Of a DNA stretch of 64,000 bases, positions 25,088-46,490 are shown piece after piece. Location of the stretch: contig CM055097.1 in NCBI GenBank assembly GCA_029204225.1, forward strand, positions 51,186,195 through 51,250,194, written 5' to 3'. Every line of letters starts with the position of its first letter. Positions within the stretch are counted from its first letter, which is position 1. Origin of the DNA: Diphasiastrum complanatum (Eukaryota > Streptophyta > Lycopodiopsida > Lycopodiales > Lycopodiaceae). The notes below the pieces were generated by a model. It did not search any database, was not told where the DNA came from, and worked only from the letters and a program-made list of their open reading frames with translations. Position numbers and translations under genes: made by a program.

Positions 25088-25147
25088 ACACACAATAAAA
25101 TTTTGTATATTAAATAAAAGTATTTACAAAGTACAATTCAGCAGTAT

Positions 25148-26640
25148 CTAATCTGCTTTCGATATTTTTTCCAATGAAAGTTGCAACTTAGAATCATGCA
25201 ACAATTTTCTTCTTTCGTATGGATCCAATAGCTCATAGTTTTCATGCTTACTCAGATCAACATAAGCAGCATACACTGCAAAATGAGATGATCTGAGCAT
25301 GGACTTCACTGGTCCATATCCTAAAATTTTAACCACAATAGTTCTCTTTATAAAAACTATTTTATGCACCTTATTGAAATTATGTCCTTCAAGAAAATGA
25401 GACAGTGCCTTGATTGCCATAATCATAGTTTCACCATGTTGATAAAACTTTGAATGGGCAACTCTTATCTCATTATTCTTGAAGGACTTCATATAGTGCC
25501 CTAGTGCATGATCTCTTGAAAATTCTCCAGCAGAAGATCTCTGCCCTCCTCGACAAATTGCGAAATCATCAAGAAAAATTGTTTCCTGAAATGATAAAAA
25601 ACAAAGTAAGCTCCAGTATATAATCTGACATAACAAATCTAATAGTACTTGATAAGAGACAAAAACTTACGCATTCGACTTTGTCTTCTCTGATTACTGT
25701 CTCTCCATCAATATTATGTCCACCTTTCGATGTCAATATTGTTGGTGAATAGACAGTTGGCTGTGGAAACCAAGTTGACTTTGGATTCTAAGAAACTCCT
25801 CCTCAGAAGGTAGATCATCTTCTTTGTTGCGCATTTCCTCCACAACCATTTTCAAACAATCTTTTCTAAAACTTATCATTATGTACATCGTCAACACCAG
25901 GGAGAAGATCATTAGCATCAAAATCAATTATATCCGAAAATTCATCAAGCTCTTTGCTCAAAATACAAAGAGTCTCAGCTTCAGTGAAGTAAAAAAGATC
26001 CGATATATCCGATATTGTTAAAAGGAATTATTATATTATAAGTAGGCAAAGTGATCAAAGATTTATCAGAAGGAGAAAGGGTAGTGGGTGTTCTAGGGCC
26101 TATAAAAGTAGTCCTATTTTGAGTAGGATCAAAATCAGAACAATCATCTAAATTAATATTCGTATCAATAAAAAAAGTATCTATATCTACAATCTTTGAC
26201 TTTTCAAACTTTGTACCACTAGAAAAAGTTGCTTCAGAAGTGGAGGGCACAGCCTCCAAATCATCAGAAATATTTAACAAAAAAAAAAAAAAAACCAGAC
26301 TAAAAATCAACAAATCTACATTTTTTATTATGAATTGGGCACTTATCTACAGACGTGAAATCATTATGTACCTTGGTAAACATTCTATCAAGTTTAGCTT
26401 TATAGATATGCTTGTCGAGTGCCACCAGGTCTTGATAATGAATCATGTATTTATTCTGAGATCTGAATAGAGGAGTATTGAGTAGGGACTTAAATTTGAA
26501 ATATATCTCAGAAAATACCTCCACACCAGGGCCCTCAGTTATAGAAGGTAGAATAAAAAAAAAAGGAGGAAAAAGAGATTTGAAATAGTCCAACCTATCA
26601 GTAATATCAAATTCATTAAAAAAAAAAACAAACTGGATTC
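25148..26640 (-). pseudogene. Gene B, copy I: Cys-cluster acidic protein of unknown function
   Basis: Counterpart of 39069-40574. The N-terminal part holds DYFKSLF, a KLDRMFTKVHNDF helix and CPIHNKKC. An acidic middle (SDDLEAVPSTSEA, DCSDFDP) follows, then PSEEEFLRIQSQLGF. An intron at 25587-25670 separates the C-terminal exon (FLDDFAICRGGQR, ALGHYMKSFKNNEIRVAHSKF, MIMAIKALSHFLEGH). Frame breaks occur near 26300 and 25981. The gene is convergent with gene A, the stop codons being only about 60 bp apart. I do not recognise the family. The C-terminal block, with GHY and VAHSK/IAHSK, is the most conserved part. A partner of the gene A protein is possible by synteny only. Confidence 0.6.
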
Positions 26641-26682
26641 AAAATTAGACATTCAAAACAAAAATAACAGAAGTAAAGTTCC

Positions 26683-26918
26683 AAATATCGCTCTCAAGCG
26701 CAAACCATAGGTCAGACAAGCACGTCAATGCAACGTGCACTCGAGAGAGATATTTGAAGTTGGAGTATCGGATCCGAGCGCAAGAACACCGAGCAGAAAA
26801 GAAAAGAGATGCGAAGAATGCTTGAATGCGATACCGGACGATGCAGTATCGGATCCAAGCGCATAATAGTCAACGAAAGGTAATGAGAGCAAGCGGCGCA
26901 CTTGAAATCGATATCTGG
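26683..26918 (-). repeat. Motif array in the gene B leader, copy I
   Basis: Five or six diverged copies of a 17-20 bp motif in both orientations. They are ATATCGCTCTCAAGCGC (26686-26702), its inverse at 26736-26754, GTATCGGATCCGAGCGC (26765-26781), an inverse at 26821-26837, GTATCGGATCCAAGCGC (26846-26862) and an inverse at 26896-26916. They lie between the gene B TATA-like box (about 26960, minus) and its coding region. Confidence 0.75.
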
Positions 26919-26954
26919 AAAAGCAATCGTAAATTTGCGTGAAAATCCGAACCG

Positions 26955-27235
26955 AAAAAGACCTATTTATAAAAAAAATTTGTAATGAGTGTCAAAGGAA
27001 CACGTGTCAAATTGTGATTGGTTAAAATAAATGCGCCGTACCTAGAATGATTGATCTGACATCTGTCATGTGCGAGAATGACACACGTCAATATCGGACT
27101 CGCACACGTGTCTCAGTCCACGTGGCCTCATAATTGGATCATCATTGTCAGTACGGACATTCCATGTGGATTAATAATCTAATGGCACATGTCTTCACCG
27201 TCTTTTCACGCGTGCAAAAATTTCGTATATATAAG
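26955..27235. promoter_or_regulatory. Bidirectional promoter core, copy I
   Basis: CACGTG G-boxes are at 27001-27006, 27105-27110 and 27119-27124. To the right, CGTGCAAAAATTT (27211-27223) leads to TATATATAA (27226-27234), serving gene C. To the left, the minus strand reads acaaatttttttt then ttataaatagg near 26960, serving gene B. The same block recurs before gene B in copy II (38821-38842). Confidence 0.6.
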
Positions 27236-27282
27236 TCCTCAGAATTTTCATTTTTTTTCGCAAAATTTTTGCTTTTAGCTCT

Positions 27283-27385
27283 CGATATTGCTCTCAAGCG
27301 CGCTCTTTCACCGTTAAGCTTCTGCCCTCTCACAGTGCGCTTGAGTCCGATATCGCTGGTTGTTCAATATCGCTTTCGAACGCAC
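27283..27385 (+). repeat. Motif array in the gene C leader, copy I
   Basis: Three copies in alternating orientation: CGATATTGCTCTCAAGCGC (27283-27301), an inverse, GCGCTTGAGTCCGATATCG (27337-27355), and AATATCGCTTTCGAACGC (27366-27383). The first two form an inverted repeat with arms of about 20 bp around a loop of about 35 nt. They lie between the TATA box and the ATG at 27404. Confidence 0.75.
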
Positions 27386-27403
27386 ATCTCTTTTCTTCAA
27401 ATA

Positions 27404-27950
27404 ATGCCAGCACCTCCAGAGACCTACCTTTGGATAGAACCAATGTGCCTACTACCTCTAGGAGGAAAAAAAAACCGCCTGTCCCCAAGAAGGCTGGATC
27501 TCAAAGGTTAGTTGTTTCCCTTCCTCCTAGACGTATCCCGACCAAGAGACCCCGTGTCTTCTTGAGCTCTGAGTCAGATGCTGGAGAATTTGACTCAGAT
27601 CAAGAATCTTCACCCAGTCCTCCTCTTGTTATTCGTCCAGCTCCTCCGTAGGTTTCATCACCAAAATCGTTGATTACCCAAGAGGAACTAGACAAAATAA
27701 CAGAGGAAGGCAATTTTGTTCAAGATGCATATCTTATTTTATATGATAAAAAAGAAACAAAAGTCCTTCCTAATACAGAGGAAGGCAATTTTGTAGCAGA
27801 TATTCCTCTTGTCTTAAAAGACATTGAGGCCTTCCCAAAACAGAGGAGGGTGAGATTATAAAAGGAACTATTGCCTTATTAGTTTCTAATACTGATATAA
27901 AAAATATAGAAAAATTGACTGAATAGAGATCTATTTGTAAATAGAGAGAC
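27404..27950 (+). pseudogene. Gene C, copy I: N-terminal part only, without histone domain
   Basis: This starts in the linker region of the ULP1 gene. A PLDRTNVPT block and a Lys/Arg/Pro-rich stretch (RRKKKPPVPKKA) match PVDRTDLST and APKRAPKKAK of copy II, followed by an acidic Ser-rich stretch (SSESDAGEFDSDQE). It then passes a stop at 27649 and continues as an EEGNFV-containing segment with a tandem echo (TEEGNFVQDA, TEEGNFVADI) ending LTE. That last part resembles the tail at 45210-45370 of copy III. No protease catalytic residues and no histone fold occur here. A one-base frame change lies near 27430. The rest of the gene is lost. Confidence 0.5.
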
Positions 27951-28182
27951 ATCAAAGTGCCACCCATTTATCTTTATTAAAGAGAAGATTTGCATCCTCT
28001 TACTTCCTACACTTTCTTGACTACTATGATTGAAGGATCTGAAAAGACAGTATGGACTATTGCACTCACATCACATGTGGGATACCCCCACCTTAAGGAT
28101 TTATTGTGTTCTATGTGGTGATGCAAATTGTGCAAGTAGATAATGGTTGGAAAGCTATTTGAGTGTAGATTTAGGTGCAAGA
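27951..28182. other. Junction segment with a short copia linker match
   Basis: Near 28015-28045, ttcttgactactatg plus ttgaag matches the integrase-RT linker of Copia-1 at about 17605. Otherwise nothing is recognisable. Confidence 0.35.
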
Positions 28183-28830
28183 TGTGAAGGATCTCAGATC
28201 ATTAAGATCCAATCCATTTGAAAGATCTTTGGTTAGAAAGAAAAATACACTATCAATCTCACCAATGTAGAAAAATCAGCATCTACACACAAAATGAGAT
28301 GCAAACACTAATAGAACTTGATCAAAATTGAATGAAATGATAAAGTATTGTTTCTATCCATACAAAACTAGCAAGATACTGCATTTCGCATATGTGGATC
28401 CAAAAATAGCAAATATAGATCATTCTACACACAAAATTGCATGCAATCACAAGTATAGTGCACCAATGGATAGTAGAACCCAAGAGAACCATGTATAAGC
28501 ATGAAATGAGATACAGAAGAGAGAATATCACTCTCTCCATGATTTACATCCTTTTATAACAGGTCCAAACCCTATGTGGCCACTTGGCTTTCCCTCAAAA
28601 TTTCTAACCCTAATATTTTTTGGTCTACATTCAAAGTACCCAACATTCAAATTTGAATCTACTCAAACTCGCCTTCTAACTTTTCCACACTTTCAAAGAG
28701 TGTTTATTCAAATGACATTTAGACTAATGAACTTTGAAAAGTCAATCTCTAAGTCTAAAAACAAAGTTGGCCTCTATATGCCAAATATGGAAATATAGCA
28801 AATATGATCAAACTAGTTCAATCTTTCACA
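28183..28830 (-). repeat. 3' LTR of Copia-2
   Basis: 648 bp, tgtgaaggatctcag to atctttcaca. Its first about 110 bp match 31800-31911 at about 95% by eye. Confidence 0.85.
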
Positions 28831-28839
28831 CTCCCTCTT

Positions 28840-31195
28840 CAACTAGTTCTAGCATGGACTTTGATAACACTCCAAGTGATGTCTTATGCTTCATGAACAA
28901 TTCCTTTCCCAATTCTTTGATGAAGGTATCAGCTACACATTACCTTGAGGACACATGTTGAAGCTCCACCTCTACAATGACTTGCTCCCTCATAAAATGT
29001 TGCAATATCATTTCAATGAGCAATGAAGAATCACATAGAATGTAAATGAGATGATTCCACCATGCTTCCAACTTTGAACTCTCTAAAAAAATATAGCAAA
29101 CAGACAATAAATGTGAGTGATCAACATTTTCTTGGATGTCTCCTTCTTCTTTGTCCTTTGTTACCATGTATCCACCATGACACTCCATGAATGAGTCTCC
29201 ATCTCCTTCTTGCCATAAGATACCATCATACCTTGATGACTTGAGCATGAATGCTTTACTCACCTCACTATATCTAAAAAAAATACCTCTTATTAAAGAA
29301 GAATCCTCCTTGGTCCTATCATCAAGAGTAATGTTGACATAGCATGTGTATCCAAAGGTTAGAAAGTTGACACTCAGCCTCCTCTTGAATAGCATCTCAA
29401 AAGGTGTCCTTCCATCCAAAATAGCACTCGGCCACCTATTGCACAAGAAATTGGCACACAACGAAGCTTGATCACAAAATGGTTTGTCAAGATTAGCACT
29501 TAACCTCATATCTTCAGCACTTTCACATAAAGTCCTTCCTTTCAGCCACTCCATTTTGTCGTGGGGTCCTTGAGGTTGTATACTCTCTCTTGATCCTATG
29601 CTCATCACAAAAGGCCTTGAACTTGGTAGATATGTACTCACCACCATTGTCACTCCTTAAGCACTTGATCCTTGTGGAAAATTGGTTCTCCCTTGCATTC
29701 TTGAACTTGATAAAGACATCATACACTTCATCCTTGCTCTTTAGTAGATAGATCCAACAAAATCTACTAAAATCATCAATGAATGCTACATACATCTTAG
29801 CTCCACTATTGCTAATTGTAGTGAATCCATAAATATCTGAATGTACAAGTTGAAAAGGCTTTGTAGATCTAGATAGAGATCTAGTATAAGGTAGTCTATG
29901 TGACTTAGACAAATCACAAGACTCGCAAACATGTTTGATGCCACTTAAGGAACTTGGAAGACCTATCACAATCTTCTTCCTAGCCATTACCTCAACGACT
30001 TATCCTTCCTTTTGATCATACAAACATCTCCATCAAACTCCACCTTGAGGCCTTTACTTAGAATTTGACTCACACTAAGCAAATTCTTGGTAATAGATGA
30101 AATAAACAAGACATCCTCCAAATGAACATTCCTATTTGTAGAGAGAGAAATATGAATTGTGCCAATTCCTTTGATTTCACACTCACCATCATTGGCCATC
30201 TAGATCACCCTCTTGTCATCTACATGTGCCACAAAGAAGTGAAGTACTCTTTGTGAATGGTCATGTGTGAACTTGCTCCACTATCAATCCACCAAGGATC
30301 TAGATATCCATCATTAACAAGAATACATGAAGATATCACAAAAGCATCATCATTTGCATCTTGAACATCCAAACCATCCTCATCAAGAGTAAGATTACCT
30401 TGCTTTTCTCCTTGATCTCTCTTCTTCTTGTAGAACTCACTTGCAAAGTGTTCTTTGATGCCACAATAGAAGCACTTGAACTTTGATCTATCCTTCTTTT
30501 TGCCACATGAAGAAGCATCCACTTGATCTTGCCCTTCAGACCACTTATTTTTGGTTCTGCCCTTGAATTTGCCCTTTGTGAACATAGCATCCTCTTGAAG
30601 TGTCAATGTAAATCCACCTCTTGCTTGAAGCCTATATTCTTCATTGATCAAGATCTCTTGAAGATCCATCAAACTTGGCAAAGTCTTTTGAATAGCAATA
30701 CTTTGAACAATGTTAGCATGAGCATCCAACAAGCCATTAAGAATCACTTGAATAAACTTTCTTTCCTTAATGCTTTCATCAATGCAAGCCAACTCATCAT
30801 TCAATGATTTCATCCTCAAAACAAAAGTACTTGGGCTCTTCATTCTTTTGCAAACAAGAAAAGATTTGCCTTCTTAGAGTCAACACTCTAGAAGAAGACT
30901 TGGATTCATAGAGCTTCTTCAATGAATCCCAAGCTTCCAAAGATGATGTGCACTTACCAACTCTCTTGAGAAGCTCATTGGTAACATTCATCTAAATCAT
31001 GTGTAAAGCCTTCTTGGCCCTCTTGCCATACCTCACTTGATCTTGTTGTGTTGCTGGTCTCTCCTCCAAACCTACAACAATATCCAAAACATCATTCATC
31101 TCAAGAAGTCATTCCATCCTCACTTTCCACAATGAATAGTTGCTTGAGGTAAGCCTATCATTGGCTTCCAACATGACTCCAATTGAGGTTGCCAT
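28840..31195 (-). pseudogene. Copia-2 gag-protease-integrase with RT deletion
   Basis: Read on the minus strand, gag spans about 31195-30300 with a damaged zinc knuckle, CFYCGIKEHFASEF, whose last Cys is Phe. Protease WIDSGASSHM lies near 30290-30260. Integrase (29987 downward) shows CESCDLSKSH, LVHSDIYGF, FIDDFSRFCW, RSDNGGEYIS and RTPRQNGVAERK. After the linker (GYMVTKDKEE) the frame runs directly into VELQHVSS, the end of RNase H. RT and most of RNase H, roughly 1.5 kb, are gone. Frame changes occur near 30830, 30205, 29985 and 29530. Any mobility would depend on RT from another copia. Confidence 0.85.
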
Positions 31196-31786
31196 GTAGC
31201 AATGACCTGATTTTCGTTTTCAACCTGTTTCAATGCACAAGGCACTCCTTTGGACAACAACAAATGCTTTAAAAAAAAATCACTAGGATTTGAAACTATC
31301 TCAACAATTCTCTTCTAGCACTTATACCAAGCAAATCAACACATAGAATCATGGAATCTTGATCAACCTATGATCTATCCTCAATCTAATAACTTTTGAC
31401 ACATCCTAAGATTGAAACACACTCAAATGAAGTCCAACAACCTCACTATCTTGAGATCCAATCAAAATTAGGGTTTTGTCAAAATCACAAAAGATTGACT
31501 ATTCCAAATCTACAAATGCTAAAATTTTGATTATGCAATCTAATAGCCACCACGAAGGGTAGTTCAATGATCCAAAAATTGGCCAAATCTAGTATGTGAA
31601 ATTAAAAATTGGAATTGATCAAGTTTGAAAACCTATACAGGGTTTTGATCTACAAAAGATCCAATCTACAAAAGCAGAAAACTCGATTTTGGTGTAGAAT
31701 CCCCTCTTAGACTACCATGCTCTAGTCTTGATATCTTCACCAAATCATTGATAGATCTGATTTTCTCCTTCATAACCTGAAACACA

Positions 31787-31799
31787 AGCTCTGATACCA
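31787..31799 (-). other. Primer-binding site of Copia-2
   Basis: The plus strand reads agctctgatacca, the complement of TGGTATCAGAGCT, abutting the LTR at 31800. Confidence 0.85.
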
Positions 31800-31911
31800 T
31801 GTGAAGGATTTCAGATCATTAAGATCCAATCCACTTAAAAGATCTTTGGTTAGAAAGAGAAATACACTACCAATCTCACCAATGTAGAAAAATCAGCATC
31901 TACACACAAAA
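31800..31911 (-). repeat. Truncated 5' LTR of Copia-2
   Basis: It matches 28183-28295 and then ends abruptly at acacacaaaat, where Copia-3-type LTR sequence begins. Confidence 0.8.
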
Positions 31912-32018
31912 TCGATGATGATTGATCGTGAAAGAAACGCAAAACAATACAATTCAGATCCTAGATCTGATAGCCTTTTGGCTATGTCAGATTATGACAA
32001 GGTACGCTCTGATACCAT

Positions 32019-32890
32019 TGATGATGATCGATCGCGAAAGAAACGCGAAACAATACAATTCGAATGGATTTCATATATGATTGTTGGTCATTGCTAACTG
32101 CTGTATCATTCCTACAGTCCTCCAAAATGTAGACAGACACTGCTGATCTACTTTTTGATTAACATAGCATTCAACGAAATTCAAACCAAGGTGTGGAATT
32201 AAATGAACAAGTGAATCAGACACACGAATAGTAAAAGACTGATTTACATTCAAGATCAGACAAGATAAGAGTGATATGTGTGCAATGTCTACAAAATCAT
32301 CTATTGATTTTTTTGATTCTTCAAGCATTGCATGTAGATCCACGCAATGCATTGGTGTGAGAGAAATACAGTTATCATATCTCACTTACTAGCGGACTTG
32401 TGGATCTACAAATCCTATGCAAAATTGTCTCGCACATAAATCGACTCATATTCTATATTTTTGTCTTCTTGCTTACTAGCGTTAGACTTCGTATATCATG
32501 CATCAACCAGAAGGTATATAGTCACATCGTGTAACTTCTAGATTAGAGTGATTAAACATATACAACTAATCACAAATTACAAGAGTGGCAGATTAGCCAC
32601 GACCTAGAGTATATCTGCTAATGTCATGATATCAGATCATAAGTCTGTACTTCTTGGTACTTGCATGATCTTGTTGGTCCTTTTTGGAGTGTGAGGGCAG
32701 AAAAGGTGTCGCGACGATTTTTGTGTCACTTCGAGTCATTTCACTTTCGAGTCGTCTGACTTTCTCCTACTGTATCACGAAAAATTCTCTTTCGCAAATT
32801 TTTTGCATTCATGTCTTTTGGTCAAGTTGTTCGTGAACATTTTCACTTCGTGTCATTTGACTTTTGCATTCGCAAACATTTTCGTCAGAG
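32019..32890 (-). repeat. LTR of Copia-3
   Basis: It begins tgatgatgatcgatcgcg directly after a primer-site complement (tctgatacca). Its inner part, 32400-32700, matches 44090-44390 (acaagagtggcagattagccacga and flanks). The same LTR end sequence is repeated at 31912, giving an LTR-internal-LTR arrangement. A 104-codon frame at 32071-32385 inside it has no recognisable domain. Confidence 0.55.
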
Positions 32891-32934
32891 TGAGGGCTGA
32901 AAGCTAGCAAAGCTTTGGTAATAGAAATGTTTTG

Positions 32935-33760
32935 TTTCTTCAGCTCTCAAAGCATGATAGCTTGACGACTCCAAGACTACTCCTTTGTCTCTCAAAAAGT
33001 CCTTTATCTAGAGCCTTTGTGAAGATGTCAGCAACCATGTCTTTCATTCCAATGAAGGTGGTTTGCAGCATCTTTCTCTCACTTAGATCTCTGATCAAAG
33101 TGGTACTTGATCGCGATGTGTTTTGTTCTTGAGTGGAACACATGATCTTTCGTCAGATGTATTGCAGATGTGTTATCCATCTGCAAAACCAGAGGCTCAT
33201 TTCTTGTTTCACCCAATTCGTCCAAGAACTACTTGAGCCAGATTATTTCATAGGCCATCTTCGTTGATGCAACATACTCTGCTTCACAGGATGATTGAGC
33301 CACGATGGTCTTGTTGACCCAAAGAATTTCCGCTCTTGACACGATGGTGCATCCTCCTGAGAGAAGGTTTAAGAGTAGTCAATACCATATCTTTGAGAAA
33401 ATCCCTTCGCTATTAGTCTTGTATTATATCTCAAGAAATTCCCATATGGTCCATACTTGAGCTTGAAAACCCATTTGCATTTGATAGTGTTGCGCTTATG
33501 TGGTAATGGCTGCAACATCCATACTTGGCTCTTCCTCATGGATGTTATCTCTTTGTTCATGGCTTGGATCAATTTGTCCTTCTCTGGACATTCAATCGCC
33601 TCCTCGAAAGTTTGTAGTTTGCCACTGAATCCACAGAACTCTTATGATGTAGAAGCAGAGCTGCCTAACATGTATCTTGCTGGCGTTCTTCATGGTCTTG
33701 TCACACTTGATCTACAGACAGGAGTACCTTCAGGTGATATAGATTACCTTTTTTTCAGCC
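32935..33760 (-). pseudogene. Copia-3 RNase H and RT fragments
   Basis: On the minus strand, an RT N-terminal piece (KRNTIKCKWVFKLKYG, LIAKGFSQRYGIDYS, 33572-33369) is joined directly to the RNase H end. That end reads SCEAEYVAS, IIWLKQFLDELGE, then DMVADIFTKALDKGLFE, ending near 32940. The RT catalytic centre is deleted and integrase is absent. A frame change lies near 33140. Confidence 0.8.
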
Positions 33761-34440: not shown

Positions 34441-34910
34441 TAAGCATTAGAGGAGTTCTCAATATCAAAAAGACCCTTTGTAATGATACTTTTATTTTTT
34501 TTCTTTAGTTTCCACCGTCACCAGGCCCAATCAAAATGCACAGATTTGAAATCTACATAACGTAGTTCAAATTAACTAAAAAATAAAAAAGCAATATAGA
34601 TAACTTTGAAATTTGTGTCTGGGCAGCATGGACGTATCCCATTGGTTTCTTCTTCCTGCCCGACACGTGCTAATCTGCCCGACGTCAATACCTCAAGTTA
34701 AATCTACTTGACTATGCTGGTTAGTATAATGAAATTTTCTAACTATACTAGTTACAGTTATAGAAATATAGTATGTACAGTTACATAAAATATGGTATAC
34801 GCAGTAACTGTGACTATGTTGGCATTCACATTAGATTAAATGTGATACGAAAAATTGAAATTAAGTATCATATCAGAGAGATTTTTTGCACCCAAGCTTT
34901 GAAAATAGCA

Positions 34911-36120
34911 ATGGCAAGGAGACCCAGATCTACAATCGATTCTGTGATTCTTTACAATGAGAAAGATGAAGCTGATAACTGGAAGCCAACAAAATATATG
35001 AAGAACTCATGGGTATTGCTGCATCCATCCTCAAAGGACAATTTTCAACAAAAGAAAAGAGCAAAAATGACCTACAAATCTTATTGGAAAGCAAAAATTT
35101 TGGAGTTTAAGACTACCTCGGGAGGTCAAATCATATCAGAAGTCTTAGTATAGCATGTATATATGCATTCAAAAATCAAAGTACATGATATCAATCCTCA
35201 TGATCATCAAAAATGTAATTGTAGGTATATCAAAACATATGCACTCTACAACAATCATAAGTGATTTTCTTTATTGATGCTCTTCAGATTATGATTTAAA
35301 TGCTTCAACATTGTTTTTTTCTTTCAGATTTATATCCATCATGCATAAGTGAATGGGAGCCCGCACAATCACTTGCAGGAATATCAGACGTGATTCACTC
35401 TGATGTTGGAAAGCTGCAATACAGAGGAAGAAGTCCAAAGAAACTTGCAGATTGTGGTATCTATTTTTATGAATCTTTATATACGCCACAAACAGATGGA
35501 GGTTTTGGCAAGCTTGAAGCAATTCCATTGCCTAGTTTTCAAAGTGATGAGTGGCCTACTCCTGACAGCATTGTTTCTGAATCCTTCAGATGCAAGCTAC
35601 TAATTGCTATTAGAAATGCTATGAAGATAAGCACAAGCTCAAAAATTGTTCACCTAAGTTGGTATATCTCATTACATATATTTGCTGATTTTTTCTCGAG
35701 TGCTAGTGTTCGTAGGACACCAACTTTATTTGTTTGCAAGAATTTATCAGATGAGACTTTGTCAGATCTCATGGATTAAGGCTTGGATAATAAAACAAAT
35801 AATGACATAGAATGCAGGATTAAAAAGCCCTCAATGATCTTTCGTTATCATATCAAAAAGCAAATGCTCAGTCTCACATTTAGCTACCAGAGATACAAGA
35901 AAATTGAAGGTACATGGCTACCACTGGATCAAGACTTTGAACTAAATGGTCACACAAACCGAATGGAGATAAGCATTATCTACAATGAGAAATATTTTAC
36001 TATGGTTGAGGTGGAAGAACATTGGAAGCTTGATTTTATCAGAACATAGCTCATGTTATTACAAACCAATCTACCAACATATTTCAGATTTATCATCAAC
36101 GAAAGACTCGTAAGTACTTT
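34911..36120 (+). pseudogene. Gene D, copy II: unknown basic protein, BAH-like at most
   Basis: Exon 1 is 34911-35220. The intron 35221-35327 (GTAGGTAT...CTTTCAG) is shared with copy IV, whose donor is the better GTAAGTAT. Exon 2 starts at 35328. The N-terminus MARRPRST precedes a region (SWVLLHPSSKDNF, YWKAKILEFKT, EVLVQHVYMHS) with the feel of a BAH-type reader domain; this is a weak guess. The central part has PLPSFQSDEW and HIFADFFSSASVRR. The C-terminal part has FRYHIKKQML and VEVEEHWKLDFIRT. Three in-frame stops, at 35151, 35777 and 36047, occur where copy IV has Gln, Gln and Glu. It converges on gene C. Confidence 0.55.
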
Positions 36121-36459
36121 ATGTTTATTGCCATGTCAAAATAGAACAAAATAATAGACAATGTCATGATTTACAATTGCACATTCACTAATATTTGTCA
36201 TGTCACATATGTGAAAAAGACGGGAGCTGATAACGTGCTGCAAAGATCTACCTACAACAATCACCATTGTGGGAGAACAATAGTTTCAAATAAACTTTAG
36301 TAGAAATCTGTGTATACACTCTTCCATTCAATAAATGAAAGCCCAAGTTGGGCATCAGTACATGTATTTTGTGCTCCCAAATTCATAAAGTGGAGCAGCA
36401 TTTGATATATAAATGTATATTTTTCTATGAATTCAATACATGTATTTTTTTTCTATGCT

Positions 36460-38234
36460 ATCTATATATGTTCTGATCTTGATTTAGTACTACTACATCA
36501 TCCTTTGCACCATCATCAATAAAGGGAGGCTGAAGCCTTGCCCTAGCCAGTATACTCAAGATGATTTCTTGTCTGAATCTGTATACCTGGCTTGATGTGT
36601 ACTCAGGAAGTGTAAACTGCAAAATAGAACATTCATGTACTAGTAATGGCTAAAAACATCAACAAAATAGAAAACTAATCATGATTCCAAAAATAAAAAT
36701 AAACAGAATTTATTACCTTAGAAATATCAACATCTTGCTGAAGGTTGAACCACTCAAAAAATAACTTGGCATTGTATAACGTGTACCACCCACAGCTGAA
36801 TGAATCATTTTGCTGTGGTGACTGCAAAATAATTCAGCACAAAAAAAATCAATTATGAAACAGAATGAATTAGAATGAAACAATTACATTAGTATACTGA
36901 TTTCAACATGCTATTAAGAAAGACAGAGTTTACCTCCAAACTCACGATCTCCCAGTCCACGGAATGGGGAACATCTGTAGGAATATATTTACTTAAATAT
37001 GACAGATATATATCTACATCCTTATGCGTATTTTCCGTCGAATTCATCTTGACACAAAAACCTTTGATACTATTATTTACAGATCTCTTAATAGAGATCA
37101 AGTTTAAACTCCAGTGGTCACTGCAAAATAAGATTAAAAGTACTTTAGCGGCAATTCTGAGAGCTATTTAAATTGAAAATGTCAATGTTAATGCATAAAA
37201 CAGGAAGAAGCACTTAATATATCTTACTTGATATAATAAGGAATGACCATATACTTTGTTGTTGGTGTGAATCCACTTGTCAGACACTGTGACAATGTGT
37301 CATTATTTTCCTTGAAGGCCTGGAGCAGAAAGTTACTCAACACTAGCAACTCGTTGGATGAATCTCTTGCAATGTCAAATTTCAAGAGTGTCAACCCGGA
37401 CTCTATCACAGGATCACTGATAGAAGTCCGTCTGTCTTTGAAATCCAAGCAATCTAAAACTCTAAAATTAATACTAAAATCAAGTTCATTTAGTCGAAAA
37501 CAAAAAGGAGTACCAATTTTATCTATAGAATCCAATGTCTTTCTCAAATCTAAGATACTCATCTGAATCTATATATGTATAAAAATTTGGAGGAGGAGGA
37601 GGAAGTGGATGTTTAGTATCTACAAGAATTAAAGCGGTATCCAAAACAATTGTAGCTATATTTACAGCATTATCAACAACAACGTTATCTACAATTGATT
37701 TCGAGTCAGGGTTCACAAAATCTGTGGTGTCTACGATCTTTGCTTTCTTTGGAGCTCTCTTGGGGGCACTCTGCTTCCTAGGACACTTCGTAGAAAGATC
37801 AGTCCTATCTACAGGTGTTGGCCTGAGAGTAGAAGGCTGAGATACGTGCAACCTACAGAACCTATCTCTCATTCTCATCAGGAGCTGAAAATCCTTGGAC
37901 ATTATTGTGACTCTCTTGGAATGAATGGCAAGCAAAAATGAATCTTCGAAAAAAAGACTAAGGTAATCTTCAGCAGCCTCCTGAAGGCACTGAAGAGCAC
38001 TAGATGTAAATCTGACCAGCTGTCCAAGATCATTTCTTGTTATGTTTCGGACAACACAATAGAATGGAGCCGTTGGATCAACAGCGCAGTTGATCTATGG
38101 TACTTGCGTATCTCAGAGAGCCACCTGTTACGGTTGCGCGTTCTATGTCTAGCAGGAGGGGTAATGGCCACCGCAGGGGCTGAGGATGATCCAGGAGAGA
38201 AGAAGTCCCTCTTGGTCTGCTTTCTCCTATCCAT
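36460..38234 (-). pseudogene. Gene C, copy II: histone H3 (CENH3-like) fold fused to ULP1-type protease
   Basis: The ATG at 38234 opens a basic N-tail (MDRRKQTKRDFFSPG, then RHRTRNRNRW). A histone H3 fold follows at about 38120-37855: EIRKYHRSTALLI, APFYCVVRNI, RFTSSAL, LQEAAEDY, LFFEDSFLLAIHSKRVTIM, KDFQLL. Loop 1 is one residue longer than canonical H3, as in CENH3. The frame then runs on through PVDRTDLST, a basic linker (APKRAPKKAK), an acidic-aliphatic stretch and the C48 protease. That protease has IPYYIK, DHWSLNLISI (His), PQQNDSFSCGW (Gln and Cys), and an Asn (KMNSTEN) where Asp is usual. Introns: 37121-37227, 36822-36933 and about 36617-36716. One-base shifts lie near 38071 and 37540. 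ULP1 enzymes cut SUMO or similar isopeptides in the nucleus. Confidence 0.8.
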
Positions 38235-38310
38235 GGATGTGTACTATGCAATAGCAGACTTGCGCGCAATGGGGAGGATGAGAATGGAAGGCTGCTAAAA
38301 ATCTCGTAGA

Positions 38311-38506
38311 GGACCGATATGTACGGAAGGAACGCATGGTATATCGGACCTGTGCGAGCTGAATATAATAGAAAGAAATTAATTCTGAATAAACACGCAC
38401 AAGTGCGATACAGGGGGACACGTAGGCAGGTGTATCGGACCTATGCGCATGAAAGGCGGTGGGTGAAAATTCGAGTGTGAAGGACGCGCACAAGTGCGAT
38501 ATGCGG
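38311..38506 (-). repeat. Motif array in the gene C leader, copy II
   Basis: Copies in alternating orientation include GTATATCGGACCTGTGCG (38339-38356), GCACAAGTGCGATA (about 38397-38410), GTATCGGACCTATGCGC (38432-38448) and GCGCACAAGTGCGATAT (38486-38502). They are the same motif family as copy I, but CAAGCGC has become ACAAGTGC or TATGCGC. Confidence 0.75.
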
Positions 38507-38539
38507 AGCGAAAAAAAAAAGTGAAAAAAAAGCATCGAA

Positions 38540-38845
38540 GTTTGTGATTCTATATCCTGGTTTGCACGTGTGAAAGAATGTCCAATCACACGTGTGGGAG
38601 TTGTACGAACAAATGATAGAGCAACACGTGTCACGCCGTCACTTTACACATGTGGGATTTGTACGAGCAAATGATAGAGCGACACGTGTTTTTGAGCACA
38701 CGAATGAACACGTGACATGTGTCCAATTGTCATTTCACATGTGTCCAGTCATCACCTCGCATGTGCCAGTAGCTGTAGTCGAATCAAAAGTAGACATGTG
38801 TCCATTGACCGTTGACCGCACGTGCAAAAATTTAGTATAAATGGC
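38540..38845. promoter_or_regulatory. Bidirectional promoter of genes B and C, copy II, with G-box cluster
   Basis: Six CACGTG hexamers are at 38565, 38589, 38625, 38683, 38709 and 38819. A direct tandem repeat of about 57 bp (38593-38631 and 38650-38689) carries ttgtacgaacaaatgatag and acacgtgt. To the right, CGTGCAAAAATTT (38821-38833) precedes TATAAAT (38836-38842), serving gene B. The minus strand near 38550 has gatatagaatc, a weak TATA for gene C. Confidence 0.6.
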
Positions 38846-38892
38846 ACGAAAATCGATTAATTTTTTTACCTTTTTCCGTTATCAAAATTCGC

Positions 38893-39059
38893 AGCATATC
38901 ACTCTTGTGCGCGTGCTTTGTTGACCGTTTGTACTCAACGACACCTACTTGCGTTCAAGTGCAATATTCGGTATCTCGAGCCGTACATATCTCTCTTGTG
39001 CGCCATCTTGATAGTTAGTTTTCTTTCTCATCTCCCTCATGCACAAGTGCAATATTCAC
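38893..39059 (+). repeat. Motif array in the gene B leader, copy II
   Basis: Four copies in strict alternation: CATATCACTCTTGTGCGC (38895-38912, forward), TTCAAGTGCAATATTCGG (38954-38971, inverse), CATATCTCTCTTGTGCGC (38986-39003, forward) and GCACAAGTGCAATATTCAC (39041-39059, inverse). They can fold as two hairpins in the leader just before the ATG at 39069. Confidence 0.75.
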
Positions 39060-39068
39060 TTTATTTCG

Positions 39069-40574
39069 ATGGCCTCTTCCTCAGGATCCTCACGAGATTC
39101 AAGCTTGAGTTCATTTCTTAGTAGATTTGGGATTATTGAAAATCTGGACTACTTCCACAGCCTATTCAGGCCATATCTACATGTTTTTAGGACTGCACAA
39201 CCAAATTCTGACGTTTTTTATCAACATTATGTTAGATTCAGAGATATATTTAGTAAGCTTGTTTTCTCCATAGGCTCACTCCAGTACATGCATTATACTG
39301 ATCTGGTTCACTTCTTCCCAGCTTTCAGACATAGACTGGATAGAATGTTCACCAAATTGTTTGATCTTTTCAAAAGCAGTCCATTGTGTCCTTATTGCAA
39401 CAAGAAATGTCGATTGGTTGAATATCAGAGTGGTTTCGTACTTTTTTTGTTAGTTCAGATCCCAGATGATGATGAAATTTCTGTTGCTGACCCTCCCTTT
39501 TCATCATCCTCCGTTCAGTCAGCTATTAAAGACATCAGTCACTTTCTTATCGACACTCATGATATAGAAAGTGACTTTATAAATATAAATACTGATTCTC
39601 TATGGGATTCTTTTATTGGCCAAAATACATCTGCTGATGAATCCAACCCTACAGAGGATTCTAAATGTCTATTCAATTTGCCTGTATATTATATTAATGA
39701 CGATGTATATTTTACTATTGCTGATTTATGTAAATTTTTTGACTATCGTGAAGACGAGGTTCTATGTTTATTATCCGGCACAATTTCCAAATTCTCCTAC
39801 TTTGTAGATTTTGAAATAGATGATCTTGTTGCTGGTATTGATTTTGATGATGAGGAGAGAATTATGACTGCTGAAGAATGCTTGACTAAGACTTTATCAA
39901 ATATAGCCGAGGATGGGCGAGGGAGACCATCCGATGAAGAATTCACGGCATTTCAATCCCAAATGGGCTTCCCTCGTCCATCATTATTGCATTTCACAGA
40001 TGATTCCAGTTCAGTACGTGGTCATTAGGTTGATCATCCTAATTTGGTTGTTGTTGATGATGAAGAATGTGTAACTGTTTAAACTTCCTTGGATTACAAT
40101 ATTTCTAATCACTGAATGTGTTTTTGCTAACAGATTTTCTATTGTAGGATGCTCTCATAATAGATGATTTTGCTGTGAGACGAGGTGGTTTCAGACAACA
40201 TGCATCGTCTTTCCATAGGGATAGTGGACTTGGCCACTATCTTAGGCATTTCCTGAAGAATGAGATCTGTATTGCTCATTCCAAGCTGAGCCCAGTCGGG
40301 GAGACTCTTATAATGGCAGTTAAAGCTTTATCATTTTACCTAGGAGGACATAAATTTGTAAAGACAAATAAAATCATTTTTGTCTTATGTTTTGAACATT
40401 TTAGGCTTTACTGATGGGAATGTTCCTTTAAGGAGCTCCCATTATTCATTGTATTCCACTTATATTGAGCTTAGTGGAAATGAATAATGCACATCTATTA
40501 GATGCATACGCTAGCAGAGAATTTCTTCATGACAATACTGCCATAGAATCTGACACAAGATCTAATGATGAATA
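39069..40574 (+). pseudogene. Gene B, copy II: Cys-cluster acidic protein, near intact
   Basis: ATG at 39069 (MASSSGSSRDSSLSSFL). An N-terminal helical region (DYFHSLFRPYLHVF, HYTDLVHFFPAF, RLDRMFTKLFDLF) ends in CPYCNKKC, which could bind a metal as a CxxC...C cluster. A long acidic middle (DDDEISVADP, DHDIESDF-type runs, DFDDEERIM) follows, then PSDEEFTAFQSQMGF. One in-frame TAG sits at 40026. The intron 40071-40147 (GTAACT...TTGTAG) matches the intron position of copy I. The second exon has DDFAVRRGG, LGHYLRHFLKNEICIAHSK and MAVKALSFYLGGH, then a frame change near 40390. Function unknown. The GH[YH] and AHSK block is the best marker for database searching. Confidence 0.6.
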
Positions 40575-40689: not shown

Positions 40690-43350
40690 GTACTCAACAA
40701 TCATCTAATTTTCTCTTCTTGGATGAACTTGCATGCTTTTCTAAACTTGTTGTATTGTGTGGACTTTGTTATATGTCGAATTTGAACTCTGCGGTAGAAC
40801 CACTAAAACAATTGACAAATGTAGTTTTGTTTTTCATTGGTTCCTCCATGTTGTGTATTTCGATGAAATGCTGCTCGTGCTTGCTAGTGTGACTTCTCCA
40901 TCCCTTGTGATGACCATACACTCAAGCTTCCATATGTATTTGCAAAAAATGTTGTATGATCTCTTAGTATGTGCTGCATATGTCAAAATCATAATGTTAG
41001 TCTTATGTTTGGATCTAAATATATACTTAAATTTGAAAGCATTCTAAGAATTTAATACTAACCATGTAATGAGTGATGTGATCATCTCCCCATGCTTTTG
41101 ATATCACATTAACAAACTTGACACAAGTCCTTTGGACAGCTTTATTATCAATATCAGAGTATTTTTCTTTTCTTAAAATAGCAATCATACTATCAAGCTT
41201 TTTCCATACATCAACTTTTAGTACTCTGGTTTTGACGTCTTTCTCGAAGTCTTGAGTAGCAGCAATAATATCTGTCTCGACTGAGTGTTGAATATTAGAA
41301 GCCCTACCAGTATGATTTGATAGGAAACGACGTGCTTTTGCTCCTCCTATGCTTGGCTTAGTTGGCATGTTCCCATTCTTTCCTGAAAGCTTTTCATCTT
41401 TTTTAATTTTGACATGTCCTTTATGGAGTCCTGCTTTTGATAAAACATCTTCTAATCGAGAGATAGCTTCCTTTGCTAATGATGCTGGCTTAGTATTCCA
41501 AGCAAAAACTATATGAAGATAAATGATCTTTTCTATTAATCTAACTTCTACATGAAGAGTGCAAACATGCACATTTTTTAAGGGGATAGGTAGCACAGGC
41601 TTCCAGTTTGGATCTGCATATTATTTAGTAATTCCTGTGCTCCTAGTTACATCTTTTGCCATTTTCATACAGTACAAACAAGGGTGTTTTGATGTAGCAT
41701 CGTGAGAGACATTATACATACATTTCAATGTTTTCAAATCACCTGCTAAGTGCCATTCAACATTGAAGTCTCCAACTCATGGAACATTGAGAAGTCCTCC
41801 ATCCATATGGTCCTTGATGATCCTAGGATAAGATGTCCTTGAGAATATCCATGATAATATATCATGATCCTCTTTTAGCACCTGTCCAAACAAATTAATC
41901 AGACTTAATTTACAATGTATTAATACTATTCAATGAATGTAATGTAATAATGAGGCTAGTTACCTGAAACGTTGCCAACCACCATATATCATTTGCTGAC
42001 TGGACACTGAATCTGAAATATTTTTGGTTTTCTGTTTGTGATAGAGTACCATTCATGAGAGCTATACTAGCCCTCTCCATCTTCTGCCCTTTCACAATTT
42101 TTGACTCATCTAACTTTAGTACTATGATTATTTTGCCATTCACCTTTTCATAGGTTATATCATAGAATGTGATGATGTATCTCAGCAAGTAGTTTAGATC
42201 AACAAATAAATTGTTTGATGAATTATAAAATATCGATCTTCCATCAGTTTCATACACCTCCTCAATATGAAATGGAGTTCCAGTGATCTTATGCATACCT
42301 ATGTTTAATGTATCCCTCTCTTTCTTCAAGTGATCTGTCCTAGGGATTGGGACTTTTCTAATTTGAACTTGCTTAAAAGCTTCTCTAATTAGTTTAAAAA
42401 TTGTTGCATATGCTTCTCTGCTAATACCTGCAAAATCACAAGCACCCTGAACTATAGTCTTATCTAAATTTTTTTGAATGTCCACCATCAAAGACTCTAT
42501 TATTTTACACTTTACATTTGAAATCCTATTGTTTATCATGATACGCTCAGTGGATTTGCAAGTCAATACTGTGCCCAATGACATTCCTAGTGAAGCATTG
42601 TCTTTAATATTCTGAAGAGCTACTAATGCAGATCTGCAAAAAAAATAGATAGTTAACAGAATATCACCATAGCTGAAATTAAATCCAAATGTCATTGAAA
42701 AACTTACAAAAATTAGAATATGCTTACTTGAATGCACGGATCCTTCTATTTCGATAACCTCCTTTTGAAAGCATTTGAATATCCTTGCAACTGTTTTGCT
42801 TTCGCTTCTTACTTTCAGCTTTCTTCTTTGCCAAATCCACATCCTTCAATAATTGTAAGTTTTCAATATGAATAGACTATAAGACTGATTGCATTTGCTC
42901 TAGTTCTGATTTGATATTGATTGTTATCTTCTATAATGATTCATTATTATTTTTAAGTTGTTCATTTTCTTCTAATGTCTTTTGGAGATGACAATCTCTA
43001 TTCTGACAATAAGAGGATATCCGAATTAACTCACCTTCTAAAAAGTGAACTTTATTCATATGAAGTTGTTTTCCATGGTTCTGCAATCTTTCACAATATC
43101 CTAGTAATCCACTATGTCCATTGCATATCCATGTAACTAAATGAATTATTGAAGAGAACGTGGGATGTGTCAAAGTGCTTGGATCTTGTGGATATAATGT
43201 TCCATCTATCCACAAATCCAAGTTTTTTTTTCCTTCTGCCTTGTAACGAGAACGATCCTCAGCAAATATTTGAATTCCTTTGCCTCCTCTTCTCTGCAAA
43301 GGTGCCAAATCAATAGGGATATCCACATGTAGATGATAGAATGTCATCAT
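40690..43350 (-). pseudogene. Gene A, copy II: candidate DDE-type transposase
   Basis: The ATG at 43350 starts MMTFYHLHVDIP. The same order as copy I follows: DLWIDGTLYPQDPSTLTHP, a coiled coil (LQKTLEENEQLKNNNES), KKRKQNS, then an intron after RRIRAFK. Next come VQGACDFAGISREAYATIFK, VNGKIIIVLKLDESKIVKG, NDIWWLATFQ, WHLAGDLKTLKCMYN with HPCLYC, and CTLHVEVRLIEKIIYLH. The end carries SSQGMEKSH and QARAAFH then WFYRRVQIRH. An in-frame TGA near 41778, a TAA near 41630 and a TAG in MEKSH (where copy I has Trp) disable it. Both copies keep the exon ends FQ|VL and HYM. Protein-level conservation despite silent divergence argues for past selection on this protein. Confidence 0.6.
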
Positions 43351-43644
43351 CAAAAAAACAATAGAGTAATCAGTTGCATCAAAGTACTATGACCAGATTC
43401 TCTGAAGCAAAGCAAAGTACTCATCTTTGATTATATTATATACTATGTACGATCAATCCAAACTCCATGCTTGTATACTTGATTCAAATTTGAAAATGTC
43501 GCTCATTTTTTCATTTCAATAGGTAGTTGGCGCTCATATTTCCATTCCAAAGTGATGATGGCATTCATAATTGGAGATGGCACCCATATTTCCATTCTTG
43601 TGGAAGGAATGCATATGTAAACATTTTGCAATTTTTTTTGATTC

Positions 43645-44049: not shown

Positions 44050-44500
44050 TTGAGAAAAAAAAACTTTCTAATCAAGCTTTTCTGACAAATTGTATGTCTA
44101 CAGATCCTATTCAGAATTGTCTCGCACGCAGGTGGGGACTCGTATTCATTATATTTCATCTTTTGACTTCTTATCTTGCTTACTAGCATTCGACATACAT
44201 TATGCATCAAAGCCAAAAGTATATAGTTCGTGAGTAATTTCGTGTCGCGTCTTGTAACTTACAGATTATAAAAGATTAAACATCTATGACTAATCGTGAA
44301 TTACAAGAGTGGCAGATTAGCCACGATCTAGAATACTTCTGATGATGTCATGACATTAGATTAAATATTTGTACCCCTTGGTACTTGGCTGATCTTCTTG
44401 GCTGTTTGTGGAGCATGACTGATTTCGTGTCATGTCGTGTCACCTTTTGTCAAAGGTTCAGAATTGAAAACTAGCAAAGCTTTGGCATTAGAAACAAAAT
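44050..44500 (-). repeat. Second LTR fragment of the Copia-3 family
   Basis: Collinear with 32380-32920. It shares ttgtctcgcac, cttgcttactagc, ttacaagagtggcagatt then agccacga, and agctagcaaagctttgg or aactagcaaagctttgg. The orientation is the same, so with the LTR at 32019-32890 it could be the other end of one copia split by copy II. Confidence 0.6.
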
Positions 44501-44679
44501 GTTTTTTTAGATGTCTTTTATTTTGATGATTATACTCCTGTCAAAATTGATTCTGATTTCATTTTGTTTGTTGTAGTTGGCATTGAGATTTGAACATTCT
44601 TTTTGTGAAAACAAATAAAAAGGGAGTATCAAATTTTCTGTGTGTAAAAATAAACTCAGTTGAGAATATACAGAGAATT

Positions 44680-45370
44680 TGATTCTCTACTTTATGATGT
44701 CGTTCGAAAAATACCGACAATGGCAAGTTCTATTGGGGAAATAACCATAAAATTTCTTAATGTATATAATATTTATCATTGATATGCATCTTTTTTTCAT
44801 TTTAAATCTCTCGTCGTAGCATGAATAAATTATATATTTTAATATTAACAATTTTCGTTCAATATCTACAGTCTGTATAGCAAAAGGATGCTTTTAGTTG
44901 TGCATGGTTTGTGTTGTACAATACGAATCTATTTTTTGAGTGGTACAATCTACAGCTCGATGGTGATATTGACAAGGTAATATCTTGTTCATTTGTTGTT
45001 CTTTTCATTCTAATTCCTATTTCTTTAGTGTCATTGTTAGTAAATTGCTCATTCACCTTGTTTGTGATGATAGTTCACTGTTGACTCGTACAATCCCAAT
45101 AAAGTGTATAGATTGCGGCAAGAGTTGATCAAAAAATTTGTATTGAATGGTGAAAGTTTTGTTCTAGAGCTTGAGGGCACAAAAAGAAATGTTGCTCCTG
45201 CCTTAGCAACCTTTTAGGTTGCTCAGAGTGCAGATCTTATAATATACGATCAAAGAGACATAGAAGTCCTTTCTAATAAAGAGGAAGGTGAAATAATAGT
45301 ACAAGAGATTGTTGTCTATACAGCTCATGATACTGTTATAGAAAATAAAGAAAAAGTTACTGAATAGGAT
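44680..45370 (+). pseudogene. Gene C, copy III: C-terminal ULP1 fragment
   Basis: An RKIPTMASS block corresponds to SKYIPTDVPHS of copy II. After an acceptor (tatctacag) comes the catalytic segment KDAFSCAWFVLYN with FFEWYNLQ, matching NDSFSCGWYTLYN and FFEWFNLQ. The Cys is retained, but the usual following Gly is Ala and a TAG precedes it. An intron follows at about 44980-45073, then VYRLRQELI and a tail containing IYDQRDIEVLSNKEEG, ending VTE then stop. The upstream His region is missing. It is convergent with the gene D fragment at its right, as in copy II. Confidence 0.65.
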
Positions 45371-45732
45371 TTCAAATGTACATAAATGTGTATATATTAC
45401 CATCCAAAAAAGGAGTTACAATCTTACATGTATTCGACCCATATATGAGATTTTTATTGATATCAATATAGATTGTTACAATCAAGTTGTGTCCATAGTA
45501 CAATACTATATTGCAATTTTCTAGATTGATAAGAAACAAGAATCTTGTTTCATTTCAATAATGATGATCGACATGTATTTTCTGATAATAAATCTCAGTG
45601 TTCTTCCATTAGTTGGATAGTTTTGCCAATCTCTGATCTCGAGCTCATATCTTTCACAAACCTGCATAAATTTAATACAAAGTATGTTACATTTAGTATA
45701 AAGATTATACGAGCAATTTTTAAAAGAAACTA

Positions 45733-46490
45733 TTAGTAAAGAATAGAGTATTTATAGTTACTTACGAGTTTACGATCAGAAATGAATATGAAGCCTGAAG
45801 ATATATGCAACAATAGTTCCTTCTTGATGTAATTCAGACTCCAATCTTCTTCCACCTCAATATAAGTCAAAAATACATCATTGTATACTTTTTCTATATT
45901 TTTTTGTTCAAAATATCCATTGGCTTCCAAGTCTTGATTGAGTGGCACCCATTGACTTTTGATATTTTTCCATTTTTTATAATGGAAACATAAGATCAAC
46001 ATTTTCTTTTCTATTTGGTAACAGAGCACATGGAAGACATTTTAACTATGCATTCTATATCTCCATCGAATTTTTTGTCCCAGCCTTCATCCATAAGTTC
46101 AGATAATAAACTATTTGATAAATTTTTGCATACAAACATCGTCCACAAATATATTTAAAAATATGAACAAACTTAATCGAACTATTTTTTGATCGCGTGT
46201 TTATCTTTAATGAAGTTTTTACATCGTTATACAACTTGCAACAAAATGATTATGAAACTACAACATCTGAGCAACCCATTCATCACTTCCAAAACTAGGT
46301 AATGGAATTGGCACTATTTGCCTAAAATCTCCTTTTGTATCAGGAATGTACATAGATTTTATAAAAAAAAATTTCACAATCAACAAGATCTTTTACAGTT
46401 CTATCTATATATTACAATTGGAGGATTCTTGTAAGTAGAACTAGACCTGGCTATAGAAAATTCATTACAAGAGGATGTAAAAACCTTAAG
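45733..46490 (-). pseudogene. Gene D, copy III: C-terminal fragment
   Basis: The minus strand shows CYQIEKKMLILCFHYKKWK, WVPLNQDLEANGY and YIEVEEDWSLNYIKKEL. These align with RYHIKKQMLSLTFSYQRYK, WLPLDQDFELNGH and MVEVEEHWKLDFIRTEL of copy II. Further right, about 46330-46260, IPLPSF and SDEW recur out of frame. Divergence is far greater than between copies II and IV, so this is an older or different subfamily. Confidence 0.65.

Follow-up and report, generated by a model that had tools for sequence, protein, structure and literature searches.

Histones and ULP1 domains in DNA transposons

Chromatin enzymes (TET/JBP, SET) and ULP1 domains belong to the known cargo of transposons, and some fungal transposons contain histone H3 copies as well. 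The element described here lies in the lycopod Diphasiastrum complanatum, in a stretch of 64,000 nucleotides (assembly GCA_029204225.1, contig CM055097.1, positions 51,186,195 to 51,250,194 of the forward strand) that is referred to as the window and to which all coordinates below apply. It is a damaged, four-gene DNA transposon with a predicted RAG1/Transib-like transposase, and its gene 2 reads from an H3-type histone domain into a ULP1-type (C48) protease.

With respect to the histone, the nearest described case is the capture of H3 by hAT elements of Dothideomycete fungi, namely Pyrenophora tritici-repentis on the one hand and Pseudocercospora fijiensis with five relatives on the other, where the captured gene is intron-less and has been amplified (PMC6710886). 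In the P. fijiensis group the copies are inactivated by repeat-induced point mutation; P. fijiensis itself has 784 H3-like copies, with the original gene as the exception, and in P. tritici-repentis 23 of 26 H3 copies appear functional (PMC6710886). Transduplication in P. tritici-repentis is the subject of PMC3538342. As in D. complanatum, an intron-less H3 thus sits inside a DNA transposon, the full-length P. fijiensis elements measuring ~9.5 kb. However, the fungal elements are hATs, whereas here H3 is read into the ULP1 gene of a RAG1-like element, and the accessible text of that paper contains neither the word fusion nor ULP1 (PMC6710886). A preliminary description of the locus, made from the sequence, had said that it knew of no described transposon with this fusion. 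Among the literature matches listed, whose coverage leaves out most subscription journals, there is indeed no histone-ULP1 transposon gene, but the capture of H3 is itself published (PMC6710886). Ultimately, H3 capture by DNA transposons is already known; what is unusual is H3 read into the ULP1 gene of a RAG1-like element.

ULP1 domains are found in plant Mutator-like elements (MULEs) and CACTA elements (PMC13317346, PMC2528002), and their precise function in transposons has been called unknown (PMC13317346). The VANC and KIU genes of plant MULEs act on related elements, whose motifs they recognize and whose methylation they remove (PMC13317346). The Kaonashi/KIU MULEs and the VANC-bearing VANDAL elements resemble the D. 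complanatum element as DNA transposons of several genes, with ULP1 in an accessory gene and short non-coding motifs that, in the MULEs, are recognized (PMC13317346). They differ in that the transposase is here RAG1/Transib-like and histone H3 takes the place of the VANC part; anti-silencing is here a proposed function. Cactavine, of the CACTA/EnSpm group, is likewise a large plant DNA transposon with a ULP1 domain (PMC2528002). However, gene 4 of the present element does not match PF02992, its left end reads CATTAG instead of CACTA, and the available passages on Cactavine contain no histone (PMC2528002). For the transposase itself, there is a likeness to the CMCT group, in which C(2)C and H(3-4)H are placed between the second D and the E of a DDE core, and whose fungal members carry a TET/JBP gene (PMC12730594).

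A histone H3 domain at the head of a ULP1 gene

The gene order 1, 2, 3, 4 is visible in one copy of the element, copy B, whose gene 2 is composed as follows.

38234-36458, minus strand: gene 2 (histone, linker and ULP1), read in all frames
37858-38234, minus strand: H3-type domain, full length, with a one-base frame change near 38067 (Pfam, PDB, structure model)
37531-37857, minus strand: basic linker in the same frame as the histone, alignable with copy A over 31 columns close to its beginning
37228-37568, minus strand: open stretch and first ULP1 exon, in a frame different from that of the linker
36934-37120, minus strand: ULP1 exon with the catalytic His (DHWSL) and MNST at the expected Asp
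36717-36821, minus strand: ULP1 exon with the catalytic Cys (QQNDSFSCGW)
36458-36616, minus strand: final ULP1 exon and stop

The linker frame continues from the histone without a stop and is open to 37519. Two frame changes interrupt the gene, one of a single base near 38067, inside the histone, and one near 37520-37570, at the boundary between linker and protease. The second is followed by an open stretch of ~114 codons (37568-37228) and then by three more exons with GT..AG introns, while the histone segment contains no intron. Gene 2 is a chimera, in which an H3-type protein has been set before an older gene for the linker and a C48/ULP1 protease. The fusion claimed in the preliminary description is supported by both the frame reading and the domain matches, and the peptide words quoted there are present at their places. 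The one-base shift that it set near 38071 is found near 38067, and the second frame change is an addition to it.

The piece of the histone that begins at 38076 matches the Pfam Histone family (PF00125) with 64.3 bits (E 1.7e-17; cut-off 26.4), and the 54 residues ahead of the frame change score 18.7 bits, under the cut-off. In a phmmer search of the PDB, histone H3 chains match at E 3.2e-14. At E values up to 1, a plant H3 query has just two matches in the window, at 38183-38067 and at 38067-37864. The predicted structure of the second histone piece has three helices with block confidences of 79-93, and all 50 Foldseek matches listed are nucleosome or histone-complex entries (E 2.2e-4 to 6.7e-4, 48-53% identity), including a centromeric nucleosome of fission yeast, although the model is not independent of the sequence because the predictor's alignment held 20 H3-like proteins. 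Profile search and structure prediction, two of the checks proposed at the outset, both return a histone.

In its histone fold and most of its near-invariant H3 positions, the domain resembles both H3 and CENH3/CENP-A. It differs from H3 in three respects: the PGTVAL motif before alpha-N is replaced and reads NRNRWL, loop 1 is one residue longer, as the alignment confirms for an earlier observation, and the frame reads through into the linker. Human CENP-A likewise lacks PGTVAL.

The spliced ULP1 exons match Peptidase_C48 (PF02902) with 32.2 bits (E 1.2e-7; cut-off 20.7) and Ulp1 (PDB 1euv) at E 3.4e-4. By the known assignment of catalytic residues in Ulp1, the active-site His, Gln and Cys are present, since DHW and QQNDSFSCG align with their counterparts in 1euv.

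Constraint, motif pairs and a possible role for gene 2

Comparison of the window with itself reveals four copies or remnants of the element, in agreement with the earlier reading of a multi-gene element: four genes are found in copy B, and parts of them recur in the other three.

22257-27650: copy A, inverted; genes 4 and 3, motif spacer, gene 2 leader and linker, no histone
34445 to beyond 43400: copy B, damaged four-gene element
44571-46441: copy D, an inverted and decayed remnant that holds ULP1 exons and pieces of gene 1
50385-52870: copy C, with gene 1 plus the final exons of ULP1, ending inside a ULP1 exon

The histone and the ULP1 exons of gene 2 both bear marks of constraint, which for the histone may have acted ahead of its capture. 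In the histone, 20 of the 23 near-invariant H3 core positions are kept (23 reference rows), compared with the majority residue at 33 of the 72 other positions (Fisher p 4e-4). When neutral decay to 53% identity was simulated 2000 times, a mean of 12 and a maximum of 19 of the 23 positions were kept, so that no run reached 20; stops averaged 2.4 per run, and 8% of the runs were free of them. Since 20 of 23 such positions survive, the H3 sequence was clearly constrained at some stage. For the protease, one ULP1 exon compared between copies B and C gives a nonsynonymous rate (dN) of 0.026 and a synonymous rate (dS) of 0.143 (31 codons, 4 differences), and another gives 0.027 and 0.203 (33 codons, 6 differences). 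Between copies B and D, one exon gives a dN of 0.194 and a dS of 1.678 (32 codons), and two other exon comparisons yielded no dS. By these substitution rates, the ULP1 exons have evolved under constraint.

Genes 2 and 3 diverge from a spacer that is rich in short repeats.

38251-39055: spacer of copy B between the divergent genes 2 and 3, with 9 motif copies and four inverted pairs 52-55 base pairs (bp) apart; it extends into the open frame ahead of the MASSS of gene 3

A 17-bp motif, ATATCGSWCTYRWGCGC, occurs in nine copies each in this spacer and in that of copy A (26685-27383). With up to three mismatches, the consensus has 18 matches in the window, all in the two spacers, against 0.76 expected, a count that is partly circular because the consensus was written from the same spacers. 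The geometry of the motifs is not built into the consensus: all 7 minus-strand motifs follow a plus-strand motif by 52-55 bp, forming 7 inverted pairs, and none of 20,000 random placements gives 7 such pairs (maximum 4). In both copies, pairs are found close to the start of gene 2 and close to that of gene 3, and from their arrangement they are probably regulatory or binding sites of the element.

The features computed here (homology to H3 and to the protease, a frame running from histone to linker, a copy A that lacks the histone and a motif array common to both spacers) allow a role for gene 2 to be proposed, of which H4 pairing, chromatin entry, SUMO (small ubiquitin-like modifier) removal and de-silencing are all inferred. 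The most likely reading, although with somewhat less than even confidence, is that the copy B product may be an anti-silencing or chromatin-docking factor of the RAG1-like transposon, analogous to the VANC and KIU proteins of plant MULEs. The H3 part would pair with H4 and enter nucleosomes or be tethered to them, and would thereby bring the ULP1 part to the chromatin of the element itself. There the ULP1 part would remove, or if inactive bind, SUMO that supports silencing, and the motif pairs would be bound by a regulator that the element encodes and that controls genes 2 and 3. A bolder version, in which the element supplies a nucleosome subunit of its own, namely an H3 variant bearing a SUMO protease or SUMO-binding pseudoprotease, and writes de-silenced nucleosomes on itself under the control of the paired motifs in its central promoter, is unlikely. 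A histone read into the protease gene of a RAG1-like transposon would be a novel means of influencing the chromatin of the host. Should the fusion recur, it would allow a direct test of mobile elements placing their own histones, and of the role of ULP1 in transposons.

Several observations weigh against such a role, besides the circularity of the motif count. Copy B is the single histone-bearing copy in the window, and its gene 2 is broken twice. In copy A, no ATG precedes the linker frame, the nearest one (27404) being in another frame, and gene 2 of that copy is therefore probably damaged too. Protein searches reached relatives with exact words in common and similar length, and among the 5886 candidates scored there (0.55-1.75 times the query length), none has both domains. 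The sole match to the whole gene 2 protein is a long-tailed H3 (P0003) whose sequence contains no ULP1 part, and viral contigs yielded no relatives of gene 2. At the position of the catalytic Asp, an alignment read by eye, in which gap placement leaves some doubt, has Asn in copy B (MNST) and copy D (INSV), and copy D reads SCA in place of SCG. Some cysteine proteases of the ULP1 clan use Asn, so that the protease may be either active or inactive. Elsewhere in the element, gene 1 gives dN/dS values of 0.54 and 2.0 between copies B and C, with no constraint seen, and dS could be computed for one of five blocks of gene 4. Moreover, the constraint on H3 may predate its capture, and the fungal hAT copies of H3, amplified and mostly inactivated, indicate that a transposon H3 need not serve its element (PMC6710886).

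The main rival, a serious one, is passive capture: in one copy, the 5′ end of gene 2 would have picked up a host H3 that never served the element and is now decaying. Because the segment has no intron, the captured gene was perhaps a retrocopy. The single histone copy, its two frame changes and the second gene 2 without a histone all fit passive capture, as does the fate of the intron-less H3 in fungal hATs, mostly inactivated after capture (PMC6710886). However, neutral decay to the observed identity predicts the stops and the loss of near-invariant positions given above, and with 20 positions kept this rival needs the H3 of the donor to have diverged beforehand, as may have been the case. 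Passive capture is thus a real possibility, although it too falls short of being probable.

The histone as a cassette in gene 2

Copies A and B share the sequences on either side of the histone. The leaders align (27204-27352 in A with 38575-38433 in B) with a score of 72, reached by none of 1000 shuffles (best 45). The linkers align as protein over 31 columns with a score of 62, against a shuffled mean of 34, and 2 of 2000 shuffles equal it. As DNA, the linker match (score 30, against 33 for the best of 500 shuffles) is within chance. Leader and linker are separated by ~56 bases in copy A and by ~600 in copy B, which include the whole histone. No histone was found in copy A, whose three frames score 27, 27 and 29, values reached by 238, 194 and 161 of 300 shuffles. 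The preliminary description had noted a copy (there copy I, here copy A) with the linker and without the histone, and this holds at the protein level.

With leader and linker in common and the histone absent from copy A, the histone is, on these alignments, a cassette that heads gene 2 and was gained in the line of copy B or lost in that of copy A. Loss would mean that the histone is ancestral to gene 2 of the family. The two copies differ by presence or absence at this site, and no outgroup decides between them; no histone fusion appeared in the protein searches, which catch relatives by common words only. An ancestral histone is possible, though not probable. It is improbable that histone and ULP1 are two neighboring genes whose frames touch by accident. 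The frame change between linker and protease would suit such an arrangement, but no stop follows the histone, and the linker read in its frame is present in copy A as well, close behind the common leader.

Relation to CENH3 and ordinary H3

The class of the histone is less clear than its fold. The best tree places it with the CENH3s (support 79/83), although on a long branch of 1.8 changes per column, and grouping with ordinary H3s is not rejected (p value of the approximately unbiased test, p-AU, 0.30), while grouping with plant CENH3s alone comes near rejection (p-AU 0.069). Among the 23 rows, identity is highest to fission yeast CENP-A (52/95), followed by ordinary H3s (up to 51/95); the three plant CENH3s reach 45-47/96, compared with 50-51/95 for three plant H3s. 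The score of the tail is matched by 10 to 53 of 1000 shuffles in comparisons with ordinary H3 tails (four of them) and by 150 to 376 in comparisons with CENH3 tails (also four), so that the tail appears a little nearer to ordinary H3; this comparison and the tree are weak because the rows were gathered by similarity. EAAEDY and KDF recall plant CENH3.

The phylogeny proposed in the preliminary description joins the histone to the CENH3s in its best tree and leaves the alternative groupings unrejected. For the claim that the domain is CENH3-like, the longer loop 1, the best tree and the CENP-A identity can be cited; a centromeric origin is not established, and the label CENH3 is not adopted. 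Guidance of the element or its products to centromeres by a captured CENH3, as was first suggested, is very improbable: loop 1, the EAAEDY and KDF words, the best tree and the CENP-A identity speak for it, but ordinary H3 is not rejected, plant CENH3s alone are nearly so and are less similar than plant H3s, and the tail is closer to ordinary H3.

A predicted RAG1/Transib-like transposase

40718-43386, minus strand: gene 4 of copy B, RAG1/Transib-like DDE transposase by its predicted structure, with stops and introns

Gene 4 has no Pfam family match. For its relatives, of which 12 were found, the predicted structure matches RAG1/Transib, with the DDE core present, although the mean predicted local distance difference test (pLDDT) score of the model is only 62 and the final Glu lies in a low-confidence part. 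Between the second D and the E, the relatives have C(2)C and H(4)H, which fits the CMCT definition (PMC12730594). The CACTA/EnSpm family PF02992 is absent from the Pfam hits of the relatives scanned (four of the 12, up to E 0.5) and from those of three gene 4 pieces of the window (up to E 0.05). A profile of the 12 relatives had 16 matches in the PDB up to E 10, none of them RAG1/Transib or another transposase (best E 0.058). Relatives sought in viral and genome contigs gave none that was confirmed, and a viral structure library gave no match at E 0.001 or better. Judging by the model, gene 4 is a RAG1/Transib-like DDE transposase with the residues of the CMCT group. Lanisha is of moss origin. 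Lanisha (Repbase Reports 2020, cited in PMC12730594) could be the lineage to which gene 4 belongs. CMCT elements end in 5′-CA..TG-3′ and have target site duplications of 2-5 bp (PMC12730594). The transposase family, which has no Pfam model, occupies 40718-43386 in copy B and 22257-25073 in copy A, and the two copies are ~67% identical over gene 4.

Ends, remaining genes and neighboring repeats

34445-34744, plus strand: common left end of copies B and C, beginning 5′-CATTAG, with different flanks
34764-36151, plus strand: copy B gene 1 (MARRPRST...), interrupted by stops or introns and without a Pfam match above cut-off
39015-40572, plus strand: copy B gene 3 (MASSSGSS...), likewise without a Pfam match above cut-off

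The left end CATTAG is present in two copies, B and C, which are 90.7% identical from 34445 and 50385 onward. The right end of copy B was sought in the window and not found. A candidate, CTAATG followed by AAG, was dropped, as the piece in which it lies recurs at 47416 and resembles coding sequence of copia. In gene 1, a stretch (YWKAKILEFKTT...ISEVLVQHVYMHS) at 50704-51201 and 34764-35150 is reminiscent of a BAH domain, with no Pfam family.

Copy A holds the start of gene 2, which is followed by a copia insertion. This copia-like retrotransposon (28182-31912) is located behind the linker of gene 2 and is bounded by direct repeats of 114 bases. A further repeat, at 44056-44508 and 32364-32941, is 71% identical over its core; the former adjoins the ULP1 remnant of copy D upstream, and the latter lies behind the copia insertion of copy A.
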